Assembly (NCBI GenBank): GCA_026225295.1
Contig: JAMFSN010000147.1
Span: forward strand, 1 to 64,000
Origin: Frankia alni
GTDB lineage: Bacteria; Actinomycetota; Actinomycetes; Frankiales; Frankiaceae
Direction of reading: 5' to 3'
Length of the DNA stretch: 64,000 nucleotides
The notes beneath the pieces are model-generated. The model did no database searches, was not told where the DNA came from, and worked only from the letters and a program-made list of their open reading frames with translations. The position numbers and the translations under genes are program-made. This document shows positions 17,252-61,357 of the stretch, one piece after another (position 1 is the stretch's first letter; each line of letters starts with the position of its first letter).

Positions 17252-17959
17252 ATGGTGCCGACCGCCGTCGTGTTCGACTGGGGCGGCACGATCACGCCGT
17301 GCGGCGACGCCGATCTGCGGGATCTGTGGAATCTGGTCGCCCGGGTGGCCGCTCCCCACCAGGCCCGACCGCTCGCGGAGGCCCTGGAGCGCGCCGAGCA
17401 GGCCTGGTGGCGGGAAGCCCTGCGCAGCGGGCGGAGCGGGACGACGACGGAGGTCCTGGCCGCGGTCGCGGCCGCGGTGGGGGTCGACGTGGTCGCCGCC
17501 GTCCGGATCGCCGCCGAGGGCAACCTCGAGGCGCGCACGCCGCACACCATCGCCGACCCGGAGGCCCTGCTCGTCCTCCACCTGGTGAAGGCCCGCGGCC
17601 TGCTCACCGGCCTGTTGACCAATACCAACTGGCCGCGGTTGTGGCACGAGCGGTGGCTCGTCCGGGACGGTCTCCTGGGGCTGTTCGACGCCCGGATCTA
17701 CACCAACGACCTGCCCTTCATCAAACCGCACCCGGGCACCTTCGGGGCGGTCCTGGGTGCCCTGGGGATCACCGATCCGACGACCGCGGTCTTCGTCGGC
17801 GACCGCCCGATCAACGACGTCTGGGGCGCGCAGCAACTCGGGATGCGCACGATCCTGCTGCGGGGTGGGCCGGTGCCCGGGTACGACGTCGTGCCGGACG
17901 CCACGATCAGCCGGCTCGGCCAGGTGCTCGATGTGCTGGATGCCTGGTCCACGGAATGA
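17252..17959 (+). CDS. HAD-superfamily hydrolase
   Basis: A 235-residue HAD fold protein of the phosphoglycolate-phosphatase-like group. Motif I is FDWGGTIT: the nucleophile Asp is present but the usual second Asp of DxD is Gly. Motif II is around LLTNTNW, motif III the Lys in FIKPHPGTF, and motif IV VFVGDRPINDVWGAQ. Loss of the general acid suggests slow or altered chemistry, though DWGG variants are frequent among actinobacterial HADs (from memory). ATG 17252 is eight bases after proS. The substrate is unknown. Confidence 0.8.
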   Translation: MVPTAVVFDWGGTITPCGDADLRDLWNLVARVAAPHQARPLAEALERAEQAWWREALRSGRSGTTTEVLAAVAAAVGVDVVAAVRIAAEGNLEARTPHTIADPEALLVLHLVKARGLLTGLLTNTNWPRLWHERWLVRDGLLGLFDARIYTNDLPFIKPHPGTFGAVLGALGITDPTTAVFVGDRPINDVWGAQQLGMRTILLRGGPVPGYDVVPDATISRLGQVLDVLDAWSTE

Positions 17960-17997: not shown

Positions 17998-18068
17998 TCG
18001 GGAGCCCGTCAGCGACCCGGGGACCATGGCCTCCGGCGGCGCGAAGAAAATCATGATCGCGCCGCCGG
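17998..18068 (-). repeat. REP-like intergenic repeat, copy A
   Basis: An element of about 65-70 bases, also found inverted at 43500-43575. It comprises two adjacent hairpins: CCGGGG-N8-CTCCGG (18017-18036, with CCATGG in the loop and one mismatched pair) and GGCGCGA-N12-TCGCGCC (18038-18063). It fills the gap between the convergent HAD and ferritin-like genes, so it could also act as a two-way terminator. Confidence 0.75.
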
Positions 18069-18075
18069 TGGCCCG

Positions 18076-18597
18076 CTAGGCCCCGGGGAACGGGCCGCTG
18101 GCCCGGGCCGGTGAAAGCCCGGCGGCCCGCCGGGCCCGCTGGGCCCGGACCGCGGCGGCGACCAGGGCGTCGGCGGCCAGCGCCCGGTCGGCCCGGACGG
18201 TGAGCGGACCGACCGCGTCGTGCGCGGCCGCGGCCGTGCGGTCCTCGACCGTCGCGAGCAGCGCGAGGGCCGGGATCACCCCGGCCGGCTCGATCGGCAG
18301 CTGGTAGGCGGGCCGCGCCGGCGGCGGCCGGCCACCCAGGGCGCCGATCCGGTCGATGAGGGTGTCGCGCAGGCGCGCGTGGTCGACGTAGGCGGCCTGG
18401 GCCAGCGCCCGGGCCGTCGCCCCGGCCGGGCCGGTGACGGCCAGCGCTCCGCCGACGGCGCCCACCGCGTACACCGCCGCGTGTTCGACCGCGACGAGGG
18501 CCGCGAGGGTCGTCGCCTCGTCCCGGGACGGGCCGCCGCCGGCCGCCGGGCCGCCCGATGGCGCCGCGCCGGCTGGGGAGGTGCTGGTCACCGCCAT
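18076..18597 (-). CDS. ferritin-like (DUF4439-type) protein
   Basis: 173 residues, mostly alanine-rich helices. The DUF4439-like core runs from TTLAALVAVEHAAVYAVGAV through DHARLRDTLIDRIGALGG to a C-terminal helix. EH and DH pairs in the helices could be metal ligands, but iron binding is not shown. ATG 18597 (MAVTSTSP) was chosen; the frame is open much further upstream, but that sequence shadows the neighbouring gene. It follows the ferritin-like lipoprotein gene by 56 bases on the same strand. Mycobacteria also carry a pair of Ala-rich proteins beside proS/rimP. Confidence 0.72.
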   Translation of the reverse strand: MAVTSTSPAGAAPSGGPAAGGGPSRDEATTLAALVAVEHAAVYAVGAVGGALAVTGPAGATARALAQAAYVDHARLRDTLIDRIGALGGRPPPARPAYQLPIEPAGVIPALALLATVEDRTAAAAHDAVGPLTVRADRALAADALVAAAVRAQRARRAAGLSPARASGPFPGA

Positions 18598-35785: not shown

Positions 35786-35981
35786 CGTGCATCACCGCCC
35801 GTGGCGTTGGCCGCGGGCACCCGACCCGACCGGGTCGACAGGGCGGCGCGAGCCGCCGGTCCTCGGTGGTGGTTGCCGGGAGCGCCGCGGAAACGCCGGC
35901 GGCCCGACGACTTCGACTGAGCACCGGCCTTCATACGTGCCGACCGGACCGATCCGGCGATGCTAGGAGGAATGGTTCTCA

Positions 35982-38183
35982 GTGGATGACAACACGACCA
36001 CGACCGAGGCTGTGATCGACAATGGTGCCGCGGGTACGCGCACCATCCGGTTCGAGACCGGCCGGCTGGCCCGGCAGGCGGCCGGCTCGGCCGTCGCCTA
36101 CCTCGGCGACACGATGGTGCTCTCCGCGACCACCGTCAGTCGTAACCCGAAGGAAAACCTCGACTTCTTCCCGCTCACCGTGGACGTCGAGGAGCGCATG
36201 TACGCGGCCGGGCGGATCCCCGGTTCGTTCTTCCGCCGCGAAGGCCGGCCGAGCGAGGACGCGATCCTCACCTGTCGGCTGATCGACCGCCCGCTGCGGC
36301 CGTCGTTCGCCAAGGGTCTGCGCAACGAGATCCAGATCGTCGAGACGGTCCTGGCCCTTGACCCGGAGACGCTCTACGACGTGGTCGCGATCAACGCGGC
36401 CAGCGCGTCGACGATCCTGGCCGGCCTGCCGTTCTCCGGCCCGATCGGCGCGACCCGGGTGGCCTTCGTCGACGCCGCCTGGATCGCCTTCCCGACCCAC
36501 GAGGAACTGTCCCGGGCCACCTTCGACATGGTCGTCGCCGGCCGGGTCCTCGACGACGGCTCCGACGTCGCGATCATGATGGTCGAGGCGGAAGCCACCC
36601 CGGGTGCGGTCGAGCTGATCGCCGGGGGTTCCCCGGCGCCGACCGAGGACGTGGTGGCCGCCGGCCTGGAGGCCGCCAAGCCCGCGATCCGCGAGCTGTG
36701 CCGGGCCCAGAGCGAGCTGGCCGGGTCGGCCGCCAAGCCGACCCGCGACTTCCCGGTCTACCTCGACCACTCCGACGACGTGGTCGAGGCCCTGTCGGCC
36801 GCGGTCGGCGACGAGCTGTCCGCCGCGCTGCGCATCGCCGGCAAGCTCGAGCGCGAGGCGGAGCTCGACCGGGTCAAGGACCTGGCCAAGGAGAAGCTCG
36901 CCACCCAGTTCGAGGGGCGCGAGAAGGAGATCTCCCCGGCCGTCCGCACCCTCACCAAGAAGCTGGTGCGCAAGCGCGTCGTGTCCGAGGGCATCCGGAT
37001 CGACGGTCGCGGTCTGACCGACATCCGCGCGCTGTCGGCCGAGGTCGAGGTCGTTCCCCGGGTGCACGGGTCGGCCCTGTTCGAGCGGGGCGAGACCCAG
37101 ATCCTGGGCGTCACCACCCTGGCGATGCTCCGGATGGAGCAGATGATCGACACGCTCAACCCCGACCGCACCAAGCGGTACATGCACAACTACAACTTCC
37201 CGCCGTACTCGACCGGTGAGACCGGCCGGGTCGGTTCGCCCAAGCGGCGCGAGATCGGCCACGGCGCGCTCGCCGAGCGGGCCCTGCTGCCGGTGCTGCC
37301 GGCCCGCGAGGACTTCCCGTACGCGATCCGCCAGGTGTCCGAGGCGCTGAGCTCCAACGGCTCGACCAGCATGGGTTCGGTGTGCGCGAGCACGCTGTCC
37401 CTGCTCAACGCCGGGGTGCCGCTCAAGGCGCCGGTGGCCGGCATCGCGATGGGCCTCATCCACGAGGGCGACGAGTTCGTCACGTTGACCGATATTCTCG
37501 GGGCTGAGGACGCCTACGGCGACATGGACTTCAAGGTCGCCGGCACCAAGGACTTCGTGACGGCGCTGCAGCTGGACACCAAGCTGGCCGGTATCCCGGC
37601 CAGCGTGCTGGCCGCCGCTCTGCAGCAGGCCAAGGCCGCGCGGCTGGCGATCCTGGACGTGATGGCCGGCGCGATCGACACGCCGGACGAGATGTCCCCG
37701 TTCGCGCCGCGCGTCATCTCGGTGAAGATCCCGGTCGACAAGATCGGCGAGGTGATCGGGCCCAAGGGCAAGATGATCAACCAGATCCAGGCCGACACCG
37801 GCGCGGACATCAGCGTCGAGGACGACGGCACCATCTACATCGGTGCCTCGGACGGACCGTCGGCCGAGGCGGCGCGGACCACGATCAACCAGATCGCGAA
37901 CCCGCAGATGCCCGAGGTCGGCGAGCGCTACCTCGGCACCATCGTGAAGATCACCGCGTTCGGCGCGTTCGTCTCGCTGACCCCCGGCAAGGACGGCCTG
38001 CTGCACGTCAGCAAGCTCAAGCAGCTGTCCGGTGGCAAGCGGGTCGAAAAGGTCGAGGACCTGCTGTCGGTCGGCCAGAAGCTCCAGGTCGAGATCTCGG
38101 AGATCGACGCCCGGGGCAAGATCAGCCTGGCTCCGGTCGCCGAGACCGCCGACGACGCCGCGCCCGCCCCGACCAGCGTCTGA
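35982..38183 (+). CDS. pnp: polyribonucleotide nucleotidyltransferase (PNPase)
   Basis: PNPase degrades RNA 3' to 5' by phosphorolysis and in actinobacteria can also add tails. Two RNase PH domains are seen: the first with [21 protein letters not shown] and [25 protein letters not shown]; the second with [32 protein letters not shown] and [10 protein letters not shown]. The KH domain follows ([20 protein letters not shown], near residue 592), then an S1 domain ([20 protein letters not shown]). 733 residues. GTG 35982 is 11 bases after AGGAGG. An ATG at 35972 opens only five codons in another frame. Confidence 0.97.
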
Positions 38184-42113: not shown

Positions 42114-42452
42114 CCCGGTCCGGTCGGACGGGGTGGCGGGTGTCCCGCGGAACACCGGTTGAGCACGCAACCAAGGGCGGTCCGGGACGGGTGATCAACG
42201 CCGAACGGACAGGCGGCAGGCGGCCGGGGGGCTGACGGGGGAGGGAGACCCCCGGCCGCCAGGTGTCGGGTCGTTACCGACGGGCAGTCGGGTCGAACCG
42301 GCCACCGCCTCCGGTGTACCACGGTGGTCGCGCTGTGTAGACAGAGGGACGCGTTGGCGTGAGCACCACGCCGCTGGCGACGCACCTGTGGTGAGGTGTC
42401 CGTTTAGTTCGGTATTTCGGCGGTGTGCGCCGGCGTCGACCCGGATCCAGGC

Positions 42453-42534
42453 GGCCCGGGACCCTGGGCGGTCCTCCGGCCCGGGACTCTGAGCGGTCCT
42501 CCGGCCCGGGATTCTGAGCGGTCCTCCGGCCCGA
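42453..42534 (+). repeat. 25-bp tandem repeat, 3.3 copies
   Basis: Three 25-base units start at 42453, 42478 and 42503, with a partial fourth at 42528. They share the core GCGGTCCTCC and differ by one or two bases in the middle. The array sits between the low-GC part of the intergenic region and thyX. Confidence 0.88.
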
Positions 42535-42583
42535 CGCGACCCCACCCGTCGGGGCGACGGGCGGTCGTTCTACGGTGGACGGT

Positions 42584-43348
42584 ATGCCCGACGCCGTTCC
42601 GCCGACCGTCAGCCCGCGGGTCCAGGTCATCGCGCAGACCCGGTTCACCCCGCCGGAGGACGTTCCCTGGAGCACCGACGCCGACGGGGGCGAAGCGCTC
42701 GCCGAGTTCGCCGGCCGGGCGTGTTACCAGAGCTGGACCAAGCCCAACCCGGCCACCGCGACGAACGCCGGCTACCTGCGGCACATCCTCGAGGTCGGGC
42801 ACCTGTCCGTCCTCGAGCACGGCGTGGTGTCGCTCTACATCACGGGCGTCTCGCGCAGCCTGACCCACGAACTGGTCCGGCACCGGCACTTCTCCTACAG
42901 CCAGCTGTCCCAGCGGTACGTGCCGGAGCGCGATGCGGCGGTCGTCGAGCCGGACGTGATCGCCGAGGACCCGGAGCTGCACGCCATGTTCGGGGCGGCG
43001 ACGGCGGCGGCCCTGGACGCCTACACCCGCCTGCTGGAGGGTCTGGAGAAACACTTCGCGGAGGTCGCCGCGCCGACCGCCCGCCGTAAGCAGGCCCGGC
43101 AGGCGGCCCGCTCGGTGCTCCCCAACGCGACCGAGACCCGGATCGTCGTCACCGGCAATTACCGCGCCTGGCGGCACTTCATCGCCATGCGGGCCAGCGA
43201 GTCGGCCGACGTCGAGATCCGTGGTCTGGCCATGGCCGCGCTCGGCGAACTGAGCCGGGTCGCGCCCAACGTCTTCGCCGACTTCCGGGTCACCACGCTC
43301 GAGGACGGCACCCGGATCGCGTCGAGCCCGCTGGTCAGCGAGGGCTGA
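42584..43348 (+). CDS. thyX: flavin-dependent thymidylate synthase
   Basis: ThyX methylates dUMP to dTMP using methylene-THF, FAD and NADPH, releasing THF rather than DHF. The ThyX signature RHRxxxxxxxS is present as [11 protein letters not shown] (R99 to S109), followed by QRYVPE; the C-terminal FAD/dUMP-binding segment has [32 protein letters not shown] 42584 gives 254 residues; GTG 42575 is an alternative. The thyX-dapA-rnj order is the same in mycobacteria. Confidence 0.96.
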
Positions 43349-43667
43349 GGTCCCCGCGCCCGGGTCCGACCGACGATCGGCGGTCCGGCGGTCCGGCGGT
43401 CCGGCGGGTTTTCCACCCACCGGGCGGTTGGGGCGATGGGGACGAAGCCGGCGCGCTGCCCCACACGGACGCCACCGGCGGATAAGCTCTGGGGGGCCAA
43501 AGGTGGCGCGATCATGGTTCTTCGCGCCGCCGGAGGCCATGGTCTCCGGATCACTGATGGCTCGCCGTCACGGTCGCCGTTGCGGCGTTCGCGGCGCGGC
43601 GGGGGTTGCGCACGGTCTGCATTCGCGCCCCACCCGCAGTCCCCGGTAACAGGAAGGTCTCTTCAGG
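43349..43667. other. 319-bp intergenic region between thyX and dapA
   Basis: No gene seen. It holds three 8-bp tandem units GGCGGTCC (43379-43402) and copy B of the REP-like element (43500-43575). The dapA ribosome site (AGGAAGG, near 43652) is at the right edge. Confidence 0.6.
43500..43575 (+). repeat. REP-like intergenic repeat, copy B
   Basis: Inverted copy of the element at 17998-18068. Hairpin 1 is GGCGCGA (43505-43511) with TCGCGCC (43522-43528) around a 10-base loop. Hairpin 2 is CCGGAG (43530-43535) with CTCCGG (43544-43549) around GCCATGGT. Similarity to copy A continues for about 20 bases beyond. Located 92 bases upstream of dapA. Confidence 0.75.
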
Positions 43668-44582
43668 TTGGCCGCCATATCGTCCCCGTCAGCACCCTTC
43701 GGGCACGTCCTCACCGCGATGGTGACGCCGTTTCATGCCGATGGCGCCCTCGATCTCGACGGCGCGGCGACGCTGGCCACCTGTCTCGTCGACGCCGGCA
43801 ACGATGGTCTCGTCGTGAACGGCACGACCGGCGAGTCGGCGACCACCACTGACGAGGAGAAGGAGCGCCTACTGCGGGCGGTCGTCGAGGCGGTCGGGGA
43901 TCGCGCCGCGATCGTCGCCGGGATCGGCACCAACGACACCCGGCACACCCTCGAACTGGCCCGCGCGGCCGAAAAGACCGGGGTCGACGGCCTGCTGGCG
44001 GTCACCCCGTACTACACAAAGCCACCCCAGGCCGGCCTGCTGGCCCACTTCCGCGCGATCGGCGACGCGACGGAGCTGCCGGTCATGCTGTACGACATCC
44101 CCGGTCGGGCCGGCGTGGCGATCCACACCGAGACCCTGCTGCGGCTGTCCGAGCACCCGCGCATCGTCGCGGTCAAGGACGCCAAGGACGACCTGGGCGC
44201 GGCGTCGTGGGTGATGAGTCGCTCCGGCCTGCGGTACTACTCCGGCACCGATGTGCTGAATCTGCCGCTGCTCGCGGTGGGCGCCACCGGCTTCGTCAGC
44301 GTCGTCGGGCACCTGGTGGCCGACCGCCTCGCGGCGATGTACGCGGCGTTCGCCGCCGGCGACCCGGCCGGCGCGCTGCGCATCCACAACGACCTGCTGC
44401 CCGTCTACACGGGCATCTTTCGCACCCAGGGGGCGATCCTCACGAAAGCAGCACTCACACTCGCGGGTCTACCGGGCGGGCCGGTCCGGCCGCCGTTGGC
44501 GGACGCGACGCCGGCCGAGATCACGCAACTTTCCGCCGACCTGGCCGACGGCCAGGTGGACCCGAAGCTTTTCACCCGGTGA
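43668..44582 (+). CDS. dapA: 4-hydroxy-tetrahydrodipicolinate synthase
   Basis: DapA condenses pyruvate with aspartate semialdehyde, the first dedicated step to diaminopimelate and lysine. The Schiff-base lysine is K170 in RIVAVKDAKDD; the active-site loop NGTTGES and YYTKPPQAGLLAHF with the catalytic Tyr region are present, as is YDIPGRAGV. The start is TTG 43668, following AGGAAGG by about ten bases; no better ATG or GTG exists before the conserved GHVLTAMVTPF. 304 residues. GTGA overlap with rnj. Confidence 0.95.
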   Translation: MAAISSPSAPFGHVLTAMVTPFHADGALDLDGAATLATCLVDAGNDGLVVNGTTGESATTTDEEKERLLRAVVEAVGDRAAIVAGIGTNDTRHTLELARAAEKTGVDGLLAVTPYYTKPPQAGLLAHFRAIGDATELPVMLYDIPGRAGVAIHTETLLRLSEHPRIVAVKDAKDDLGAASWVMSRSGLRYYSGTDVLNLPLLAVGATGFVSVVGHLVADRLAAMYAAFAAGDPAGALRIHNDLLPVYTGIFRTQGAILTKAALTLAGLPGGPVRPPLADATPAEITQLSADLADGQVDPKLFTR

Positions 44583-58524: not shown

Positions 58525-58574
58525 CATGTCGGGGAAACACCACGGCGGTACCTTTCGCCCGACCCGCCAGATGG

Positions 58575-58692
58575 TGGGGCGCACCTAGGGTTCCGCCGGC
58601 GGCTGGTCAGCCACCGGGTCAGGTCCGAGAGGGGCAGGCGGCCGCATCGTGGCGGGCGCCCCACGGCGGGACAAAAGCCCGGGAGACAGCCG
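58575..58692 (+). promoter_or_regulatory. guanidine-I (ykkC class) riboswitch
   Basis: The RNA would contain the hallmark conserved segments of the guanidine-I aptamer in order: CTAGGGTTCCG (58585-58595), GGTCCGAGAG (58622-58631), and the 3' block ACGGCGGGACAAAAGCCCGG running to GGGAGA (58663-58686). Between them lie GC-rich arms able to pair (GGCTGGTCAGCC; GGCGGGCGCCCC). Aptamers of this class bind guanidinium and switch on guanidine exporters, carboxylases or hydrolases. It precedes the ureohydrolase start by about 45 bases, so gdmH expression is probably guanidine-induced. Confidence 0.9.
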
Positions 58693-58737: not shown

Positions 58738-59946
58738 GTGACCACGAATCAGGACCCGAGCAGCGACCCGGACCCCGGCAACCGGTCGGACCCGGCGGCC
58801 GCCCCGCCCGCGAGGGGGCCCGGCGCGGGTCATCATCACGGAGCCCGGCACGACAATTACGGGCCGGAGGCGCGCTACGCCGTCGAGCGGGAAGCGCAAC
58901 TGCCGACCACGATGCACGAACGGGAGATCGCCCGGGGCCTCGAACTCGGCCTGCCGGGGGCCGACTCGATCGTCGACCGGTCCATCCCGACCTTCTCCCG
59001 GGGCGAGCTCCCGCACTTCGCGGGCATCAACACCTTTCTGAAAGCACCCTACGTCGAGGACGTACGGACCTGCGGCGACTATGACGTCGTGGTGCTGGGC
59101 GCGCCGTTCGACGGTGGCACCACCTACCGGCCCGGCACCCGGTTCGGCCCGCAGGGCATCCGCAAGATCTCCGCCCTCTACGGGCCGTACAGCTTCGAGC
59201 TCGGGGTCGACCTGCGTGAATCGATCACGATCGCGGATGTCGGCGACATCTTCACGATCCCCGGCAATATCGAGAAGACATTCGACCAGATCAGCAAGGC
59301 GGTCGGCCACGTATACGCCTCGGGCGCCTTTCCGGTGGTCCTCGGCGGCGACCACTCGATCGGCTATCCCACGACCCGGGGCGTTGCCGAACACCTGTCC
59401 GGGAAACTGGGGATCATCCACTTCGACCGGCATGTGGACACCCAGGAGACCGACCTCGACGAGCGGATGCACACCACGCCGTGGTTCCACGCCACGGACC
59501 TGCCGAACGTGCCGGCCAAGAACCTCGTTCAAATCGGGATCGGTGGCTGGCAGGCCCCCCGTCCGGGCGTCAAGGTGGGCCGCGAGCGGGGAACAACGAT
59601 CATGACGGTCACCGACTGCGTCGAGATGGGCATCGAGGCGGCCGCCGAGCGGGCCCTCGAGGTGGCCTGGGACGGCGCCGACGCCGTGTGGCTCTCGTTC
59701 GACGTGGACTGCCTGGATGCGGCCTTCGCTCCGGGAACCGGCTGGCCGGAGCCCGGCGGCTTCCTGCCCCGCGAGGTACTCAAGTTCATCCAGCTGGTGT
59801 CCGAGCGCCCGCTGGCCGGTATCGAAGTTGTCGAATGCTCCCCGCCGTATGACAACGCGGAGATCACGGCATTGATCTCCACCCGGGTCATCTGCGACAC
59901 GCTCGGCTGTCTGGTCCGGGCCGGGCACCTCCCGCGGGGCCGCTGA
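58738..59946 (+). CDS. gdmH: ureohydrolase, probable Ni-dependent guanidine hydrolase
   Basis: 402 residues of the arginase/agmatinase fold. The six metal ligands are present: H206 (GGDHSIG), D230, H232 and D234 (HFDRHVDTQETD), D322 and D324 (SFDVDCLD). Between D230 and H232 stands Arg where arginases have Ala (DAHxD). The long N-terminal segment (EREIARGLELGLPGADSIVD, RSIPTFSRGELPHFAGINTF) and LDERMHTTPWFHATD recall cyanobacterial GdmH (Sll1077), which hydrolyses guanidine to ammonia and urea; this match is from memory. The upstream guanidine riboswitch supports it; agmatinase or guanidinobutyrase remain alternatives. No nickel-loading (HypA/HypB-like) genes are next to it. GTG 58738 follows GGAGG. 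Confidence 0.82.
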   Translation: MTTNQDPSSDPDPGNRSDPAAAPPARGPGAGHHHGARHDNYGPEARYAVEREAQLPTTMHEREIARGLELGLPGADSIVDRSIPTFSRGELPHFAGINTFLKAPYVEDVRTCGDYDVVVLGAPFDGGTTYRPGTRFGPQGIRKISALYGPYSFELGVDLRESITIADVGDIFTIPGNIEKTFDQISKAVGHVYASGAFPVVLGGDHSIGYPTTRGVAEHLSGKLGIIHFDRHVDTQETDLDERMHTTPWFHATDLPNVPAKNLVQIGIGGWQAPRPGVKVGRERGTTIMTVTDCVEMGIEAAAERALEVAWDGADAVWLSFDVDCLDAAFAPGTGWPEPGGFLPREVLKFIQLVSERPLAGIEVVECSPPYDNAEITALISTRVICDTLGCLVRAGHLPRGR

Positions 59947-60271: not shown

Positions 60272-61357
60272 TTGAACCGAGTTCTAGTCAGCATCGTGAT
60301 TCCCGCCTACAACGAGGCGCACCGGCTGCCGCGGTCCATGGCGAAGCTGGTCCCGTTCGTCTCCGCGTTGGGCGGCGCCGAAGTCATCGTGGTCGATGAC
60401 GGCAGCACCGACGGCACCGTCGCGCTCGCCGAGCGGTTCCTGCACGACCTGCCCGAGGCCCGGGTGCTGCGTCTGCCGTGGAACTCGGGCAAGGGGTCAG
60501 CGGTCCGGGCCGGGGTGGCGATGGCCCGCGGCGAGGCGATCGTTTTCATGGACGCCGACATGGCATCCGATCTCGAGGACCTACCGAGGTTGCTGGCCGC
60601 GTTGGCCGACGCCGAGATCGCGGTCGGCTCCCGGCGGGTCGGTGACGGCGCGACCCGCAACGGGTGGCGCAAGGCCGGCTCGTGGGGCTTCAACCAGATC
60701 ATCCGCTCGCTCACCAGCCTGGATCACGCCGACACCCAGTGCGGCTTCAAGGCGTTCCGCCATGCCGAGGCGAAGCTGCTGTTCAGCATGTCGCGAGCGA
60801 CCGGCTTCGGTTTCGACGTGGAGATTCTCGCGCTGGCCCGGATGCTCGGTTACCGCACCGCCGAGGTGCCGATCCGGTGGGACGAGGTCGACGGCGGTCG
60901 CTTCAATCTCATCCGCCACACCCCGGCGATGATCGTCGATGCCGCGCGGGCCGGTCGGCTGGCCCGCCGGGCCCCGCACAACTGGTCGCTGGAGCGGCCG
61001 TCGGGCGACGAACGGTCCGCCGACCTTCTGGACGCGCCCTACGTGGCCCCCCGGCCGTCGGTCGCGTCCCGAGGGGCCGAGGACCCGGGACCGTACGTCG
61101 ATGCGGCGCCCGTCGCGGTCGAGGAGATGCCCACCGGCCTGGTGCTGCTCGATCGGGGCGGCCGGGCGGTGGCGCCCGCGAACGCCGGGCACAACGGCGT
61201 CGGTCCGCACAGCGCGGCCGGTTCGCACAGCGGTGTCGGTTCGCACAGCGGTGTCGGTTCGCACAGCGGTGTCGGTTCACACGGTGGAACAACCGCCCAC
61301 AACCCGGGCATCCAGCGCACGGCTACTGTGACGGGCGTTCAGCGCGAAGTTGTATGA
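60272..61357 (+). CDS. GT2 glycosyltransferase, polyprenyl/dolichyl-phosphate sugar transferase-like
   Basis: Family-2 glycosyltransferase like dolichyl-phosphate glucosyl- or mannosyltransferases, which load sugars on lipid carriers for envelope glycan assembly. VSIVIPAYNEAHRLPRSM opens the GT-A fold; VVDDGSTDGT and FMDADMASDLEDLPRLL carry the metal/nucleotide motifs; TQCGFKAFRH and FDVEILALARMLGYRTAEVPIRW follow. TTG 60272 after GGGAGCGG gives a family-like start (NRVLVSIVIP); GTG 60206 would add 22 residues. The last 100 residues are a low-complexity tail with GSHSGV repeats. It precedes the AftD-like gene by about 50 bases. Confidence 0.87.
   Translation: MNRVLVSIVIPAYNEAHRLPRSMAKLVPFVSALGGAEVIVVDDGSTDGTVALAERFLHDLPEARVLRLPWNSGKGSAVRAGVAMARGEAIVFMDADMASDLEDLPRLLAALADAEIAVGSRRVGDGATRNGWRKAGSWGFNQIIRSLTSLDHADTQCGFKAFRHAEAKLLFSMSRATGFGFDVEILALARMLGYRTAEVPIRWDEVDGGRFNLIRHTPAMIVDAARAGRLARRAPHNWSLERPSGDERSADLLDAPYVAPRPSVASRGAEDPGPYVDAAPVAVEEMPTGLVLLDRGGRAVAPANAGHNGVGPHSAAGSHSGVGSHSGVGSHSGVGSHGGTTAHNPGIQRTATVTGVQREVV
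61220..61273 (+). repeat. 18-bp tandem repeat in the glycosyltransferase tail
   Basis: Three exact 18-base units starting GGTTCGCACAGC encode GSHSGV; a degenerate fourth follows at 61274. They lie after the catalytic domain, near the C-terminus. Confidence 0.9.

Follow-up and report, generated by a model that had tools for sequence, protein, structure and literature searches.

A CTAG-tagged hairpin repeat of Frankiaceae as a probable non-autonomous mobile element inserted beside an 8-mer that often contains a stop codon

A repeat of about 65 to 70 bp that occurs twice in a 64,000-nucleotide stretch of Frankia alni DNA (contig JAMFSN010000147.1, hereafter the window) is very probably a mobile, structured, and non-autonomous element. 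Filled and empty sites in relatives reveal recent and precise insertion of a ∼70-bp unit exactly beside an 8-mer. We favor, with a probability of about 0.6, the reading that the repeat is a "CTAG-tagged hairpin" inserted beside a frequently stop-containing 8-mer and moved in trans by an enzyme with HUH-like chemistry. A broader proposal is more tentative: the Frankiaceae may possess self-structured ∼70-nt DNA elements that are moved by an enzyme other than a known REP transposase, with ends that evolved to target and rebuild stop codons, and that spread by the hundreds at gene ends while sparing the genes. REPs are among the most common bacterial repeats, and their mode of spread is still debated. 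Because this REP-like family combines young copies, a defined target, and resolved empty sites with genomes that have no RAYT, the question of how such repeats move in the absence of a RAYT becomes testable. The copies might also be useful as markers of uncultured Frankia symbionts.

Copies, family size, and conserved hairpin

Covariance model searching (cmsearch) located copy A at window positions 18005–18080 (minus strand, 88.9 bits, E = 2e-22) and copy B at 43488–43561 (plus strand, 86.2 bits, E = 1e-21), which bears out the first-pass annotation of one element present twice in opposite orientation. The two copies are 91% complementary over 43 nt and form the top-ranked inverted repeat of the window. 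Their locations stood, but their limits required revision because the element is longer than had been given (A, 18005–18079; B, 43489–43561, including the target). The features of both copies and their neighbors, with the basis of each assignment, are as follows.

17252–17959, plus strand: HAD-family hydrolase gene, convergent to the DUF4439 gene across copy A (gene finder, Pfam)
18005–18012, minus strand: copy A boundary 8-mer, CTGACGGG on the minus strand, the putative target site kept beside the insertion (sequence; equivalent 8-mer in relatives' empty sites)
18013–18079, minus strand: copy A element proper, starting with CTAGCGGGCC on the minus strand (cmsearch; limits from relatives' insertion sites and sharp conservation edges)
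18028–18073, minus strand: copy A outer clamp, GGCC (18028–18031) and GGCC (18070–18073), closing the interrupted hairpin (consensus structure)
18035–18066, minus strand: copy A inner hairpin, GGCGGCGCGA (18035–18044) paired with TCGCGCCGCC (18057–18066) (fold; family-wide compensatory changes)
18076–18079, minus strand: copy A CTAG end, with TAG at 18076–18078 as the stop codon of the DUF4439 gene (gene finder, Pfam, sequence)
18076–18597, minus strand: DUF4439 protein gene, 3' end within copy A (gene finder, Pfam)
42575–43348, plus strand: ThyX (Thy1) gene, upstream of copy B (gene finder, Pfam)
43489–43553, plus strand: copy B element proper, CTGGGGGGCC...GGATCA (cmsearch)
43495–43538, plus strand: copy B outer clamp, GGCC (43495–43498) and GGCC (43535–43538) (consensus structure, covariation)
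43502–43531, plus strand: copy B inner hairpin, GGTGGCGCGA (43502–43511) paired with TCGCGCCGCC (43522–43531), one G-U (consensus structure, covariation)
43554–43561, plus strand: copy B boundary 8-mer CTGATGGC, the putative target site (sequence; comparison with relatives' empty sites)
43719–44582, plus strand: DapA (DHDPS) gene, downstream of copy B (gene finder, Pfam)

When copy A was used as a blastn query, ∼28 copies were recovered from the window's own genome (5.78 Mb, 412 contigs), and a covariance model (R1) built from 25 of these identified 37 copies at E < 1e-3. The A/B pair is therefore not a chance resemblance, and the family is not confined to these two copies genome-wide. The comparison set comprised 35 Frankiaceae genomes, among which the window genome is the sole representative of its genus. 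Counts, which are limited by the number of candidates scored, were 54 to >139 for each of the five genomes in genus g6, 0 to >139 per genome in genus g7, and 0–3 in genus g5, with >139 in an 11-Mb relative; no confident copy was detected in any of the 13 genomes of genus g2, two of which gave a single marginal match. Unbiased sampling yielded ∼35 copies/Mb in genome G022 and 40/Mb in G032, corresponding to ∼200 and at least 400 per genome, respectively. Exact pattern matching against the GTDB species genomes gave a hit only in Candidatus Frankia meridionalis Cppng1. A search for phage and plasmid carriers of the repeat gave no match, and four pattern matches in viral contigs were rejected as chance occurrences lacking the hairpin. 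Genome G030 (2 contigs, 99% complete) contained 55 copies; the region from ∼2.8 to 6.4 Mb of its contig C1 was poor in copies (∼5 of 44), possibly a chromosome arm/core effect. Four loci of G022 (L107, L116, L117, and L103) kept the core of the repeat but differed in their stems (GAGCGCGCG, GGGTGCGCG) and had shorter tails, which suggests that these variant hairpins may represent further subfamilies beyond model R1.

The family consensus fold reads GGCC-AAA-10-bp stem-loop-stem-GGA-GGCC, followed by a conserved tail, and the conserved structure is one hairpin with an AAA/GGA internal loop, not two separate hairpins. The two-hairpin anatomy proposed earlier did not survive: its 20-base palindrome around CCATGG formed only when copy B was folded as DNA, the consensus fold lacks it, and relatives do not retain the ATGG positions. 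When 86 copies drawn from several genomes were aligned without reference to structure, 93.2% of stem pair cells held standard pairs, and 70 cells showed double changes compared with 17.6 in shuffles and 4–11 in slid controls; column pair 18–44, for example, was G-C in 39 copies, A-U in 20, C-G in 8, and U-A in 7. Stem changes are thus strongly compensated between subfamilies at the family level, which disposes of the concern that they might lack compensation. G-U and A-C combinations were about equally frequent in stem cells (50 versus 38, p = 0.24). The suggestion that the stems are kept by selection for RNA or DNA structure holds for compensation; RNA-level selection is not supported, and we rejected it for resident loci because G-U is not in excess over A-C. 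Such near-equality is expected if the structure matters in mobility while resident copies decay; compensated changes distinguish subfamilies from one another, and the decay of resident copies seems to favor neither strand. No Rfam family approached its gathering threshold for the repeat, which gave only sub-threshold miRNA-like noise.

Ends, insertion sites, and gene context

The boundaries of the repeat are related 8-mers, CTAGAGGG on the left and CTRAYGGG on the right. Conservation rises abruptly at CTAG and stops after the second 8-mer, CTNANGGG, and the left flank carries only ∼0–0.5 bits of information per base, so that the target is conserved on one side only. The element end is CTAG(AGGG), and CGTC is confined to the target 8-mers, where some copies have it. 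Among the near-identical copies of G032, the left CTAGAGGG was constant and the right 8-mer variable, and adjoining tandem units had one 8-mer in common.

Three comparisons of filled G032 sites with empty G027 or G030 counterparts, all from relatives of the window genome and none from that genome itself, define the insertion, with both flanks clean in two of the three. Site 1 in G032 consists of CCTAACGT, the unit CTAGAGGG..GGATCA, and CTGACGGGACACAGC, and is empty in G027 (CCTAACGTCTGACGGGACACAGC); the empty form joins CCTAACGT to CTGACGGG, and the unit sits before CTGACGGG when the site is filled. At site 2, G032 has CCCGTTAG, TGATCC..CTCTAG, and CTGGCAAGG, compared with TCCGTTAG followed by CGGGCAAGG in the empty G030; read on the other strand, CCGTTAG precedes CGGGCAAGG, and the unit was added 3' of GTTAG. 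At site 3, where the 3' flank has diverged, the unit directly follows CCCCGTTAG; the TAG of this sequence terminates an amidohydrolase gene, which has the same end in the empty G030. No duplication was found beyond 2–3 bases (CT or TAG) common to the element end and the target. On the copy-A strand, these three sites, two of them clean, represent insertion beside a fixed 5' target, CCCRTYAG, without duplication. A base-paired target guide (AACGG of the g7 element with CCGTT of the target) was considered and rejected, as the subfamily of the window genome does not preserve the pairing.

Gene calls were made with a home-made codon-usage finder. Only eight of 130 copies lay within predicted genes, in DNA that is ∼65–87% coding by the same finder, in line with the anticipated intergenic bias. 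Co-directional neighbors preferred one orientation of the repeat (52:21, p = 4e-4). The stop codon of a same-direction upstream gene fell at −4 to −6, exactly within the CTAG end, in 20 of 69 copies. In nine of 38 copies with an opposing gene downstream, the stop of that gene was at −7 to −9, within the other 8-mer. The DUF4439 gene takes its TAG stop from copy A. In many copies the target 8-mer contains stop codons, C-TGA or C-TAA in one direction and C-TAG in the other. As a result of the stop codons in target and element, insertion tends to spare genes. A target-like motif was about equally frequent inside and outside genes, so purging of intragenic copies is needed besides target choice. 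Gene-sparing insertion and purging together lead to an extragenic position at gene 3' ends, a bias that the stop-codon target thereby explains without a regulatory role.

Mechanism of movement and alternative explanations

In the favored mechanism, a ∼70-bp unit (CTAGAGGG, the interrupted hairpin, and ...GGATCA on the copy-B strand) would insert immediately 5' of a target approximating CTRAYGGG (CCCRTYAG on the other strand), and the stop codon of the target 8-mer, or the element's own CTAG end, would leave genes mostly intact. Re-insertion beside an existing boundary would generate head-to-tail arrays with one common 8-mer. The most likely chemistry would be hairpin-dependent cutting and joining at the boundary CT/AG, similar to that of REP or IS200/IS605-type HUH elements. 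The enzyme would act in trans and would not be a recognizable resident Y1/RAYT; an excised circle, if formed, would carry the junction GGATCACTAGAGGG. We infer a single-strand intermediate, HUH-like chemistry, a trans-acting enzyme, and decay of resident copies. Since the CT at both boundaries matches RAYT cleavage at CT (PMC8266576), HUH/REP-like action by another enzyme would be the best single mechanism. This class assignment derives from the anatomy of the ends only, with no mobilizing gene found; moreover, IS110-type recombination would give the same CT core and lack of duplication, and a lagging-strand targeting test revealed no visible strand bias in G030, where the replication origin was not located.

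The anatomy resembles that of REPs, BIMEs, and REPINs in its high copy number, extragenic location mostly at gene 3' ends, non-autonomy, compensated hairpin, short unpaired tag at one foot, and CT at the boundaries. Classical REP/RAYT membership, with the repeats as REPs moved by a resident or recently lost Y1 transposase, agrees with the size class, hairpin, boundary CT, gene-3'-end location, and copy number (PMC8266576, PMC2817692), REP transposases being known to cut at CT beside a hairpin (PMC8266576). We used PF01797 (Y1_Tnp) as the transposase probe, with the E. coli Y1 transposase detected as a positive control. No match was obtained in the window's own genome (97.6% complete), in the copy-bearing genomes G025 and G026, or in G027–G033, and the domain was absent from all seven copy-bearing g7 genomes, including G030 and G032, the latter with near-identical young copies; it was common in repeat-free genomes, and G022–G024 had one such gene each. 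In the published description, two inverted REPs always flank a RAYT (PMC2817692), whereas eight sampled Y1 loci from relatives had no confident repeat copy within ∼1.5 kb. Adjacent copies (<250 bp apart) were in the same orientation in 17 of 18 pairs, rather than alternating, and the tag is CTAG, not GT(A/G)G. The link to a RAYT and the BIME-type layout suggested by the first-pass annotation are not supported by these results; a resident enzyme is largely refuted, the REP/RAYT explanation as a whole is improbable, and we do not assign the repeat to that system. Its description as a REP-like family is nevertheless upheld in that the repeat is multi-copy, extragenic, mobile, and equipped with a compensated hairpin. 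An autonomous relative was sought through the left end in G030 and G027, where all six matches were ordinary copies, and the open reading frames between neighboring copies encoded ordinary proteins (Usp, UDP-glucose dehydrogenase, amidohydrolase) and no transposase.

The main rival, which we consider unlikely, makes the repeat a passenger of a dsDNA site-specific recombinase (of the serine or tyrosine type, or that of an IS110-type bridge-RNA element whose core is CT), with the 8-mer as crossover site. Precise insertion without duplication around a common CT (or TAG) core, the resemblance of the element end to the target, tandem arrays with one common 8-mer, and the lack of strand bias seen in G030 are all consistent with this possibility, as is the CT core of IS621 (PMC11208160). 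IS110 elements, however, recognize their targets on either side of the core, and here the left flank is nearly devoid of information; furthermore, dsDNA recombination needs no long covarying hairpin, and an autonomous partner was not found. A still poorer candidate is a resident functional RNA or DNA motif (3'-UTR stabilizer, terminator, sRNA, or protein-binding site) kept by selection at each locus. The bias to gene 3' ends and transcription direction and the stable, covarying hairpin would suit such a motif, which we regard as very improbable given the empty sites in G027 and G030, the restriction of orthologous copies to a minority of genomes, the patchy distribution across genera, the failure of stem G-U to be favored over A-C, and the Rfam result. 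No confident copy was present near thyX or dapA in 12 relatives either, although the thyX-dapA gap there is ∼4–10 kb and the exact copy B junction thus cannot be compared. The least credible explanation is a MITE of a DDE insertion sequence: the repeat is short, non-coding, and mobile, but its ends (CTAGAGGG and GGATCA) do not form terminal inverted repeats and the resolved sites show no normal-sized target duplication, so this origin is refuted by anatomy unless the ends are misassigned.

REPs are 20–40 bp with GT(A/G)G or CGTC tags, whereas the Frankiaceae repeat is ∼70 bp, including the conserved tail and 8-mer ends, and bears a CTAG tag; it also differs in that copy-rich genomes have no RAYT, clusters run head-to-tail instead of alternating, empty sites are precise, and stop codons lie in the targets. 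CGTC-tagged REPs also occur without a dedicated transposase (PMC3733652), and the tagged-REP survey text contained no actinobacterium among the names sought. With IS200/IS605-derived elements the repeat has in common the lack of terminal inverted repeats and target duplication, a hairpin near the ends, and insertion next to a 5' target, CCCRTYAG, that its own 3' end CCCTCTAG resembles; unlike them, it has a single hairpin for both ends, and most carriers have no Y1 transposase gene. Mycobacterial MIRUs are likewise actinobacterial, <100 bp, intergenic, and oriented with transcription, and they exhibit stop-codon-junction insertion and tandem arrays. MIRUs are not known to rest on a covarying hairpin, use another target, and have no known relation in sequence. 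Cyanobacterial SDRs (small dispersed repeats) are also very small, mobile, and precisely inserted, with a conserved hairpin and no known enzyme, but they are ∼20–30 nt in length and belong to cyanobacteria.

Other features of the window

A guanidine-I riboswitch (RF00442) was detected at 58574–58687 (plus strand) with a score of 65.3 bits, above the gathering threshold, directly upstream of an arginase-family gene (58738–59946); the two probably constitute a guanidine hydrolase arrangement. An Actino-pnp RNA (RF01688) at 35855–35928 (plus strand) lies upstream of the polynucleotide phosphorylase gene (35982–38183). In addition, a 25-bp tandem repeat, CGGCCCGGGACTCTGAGCGGTCCTC, is present in 3.3 copies at 42452–42533, upstream of thyX, and 18-bp tandem repeats, GCACAGCGGTGTCGGTTC, occupy 61189–61278 near the 3' end of a glycosyltransferase gene.
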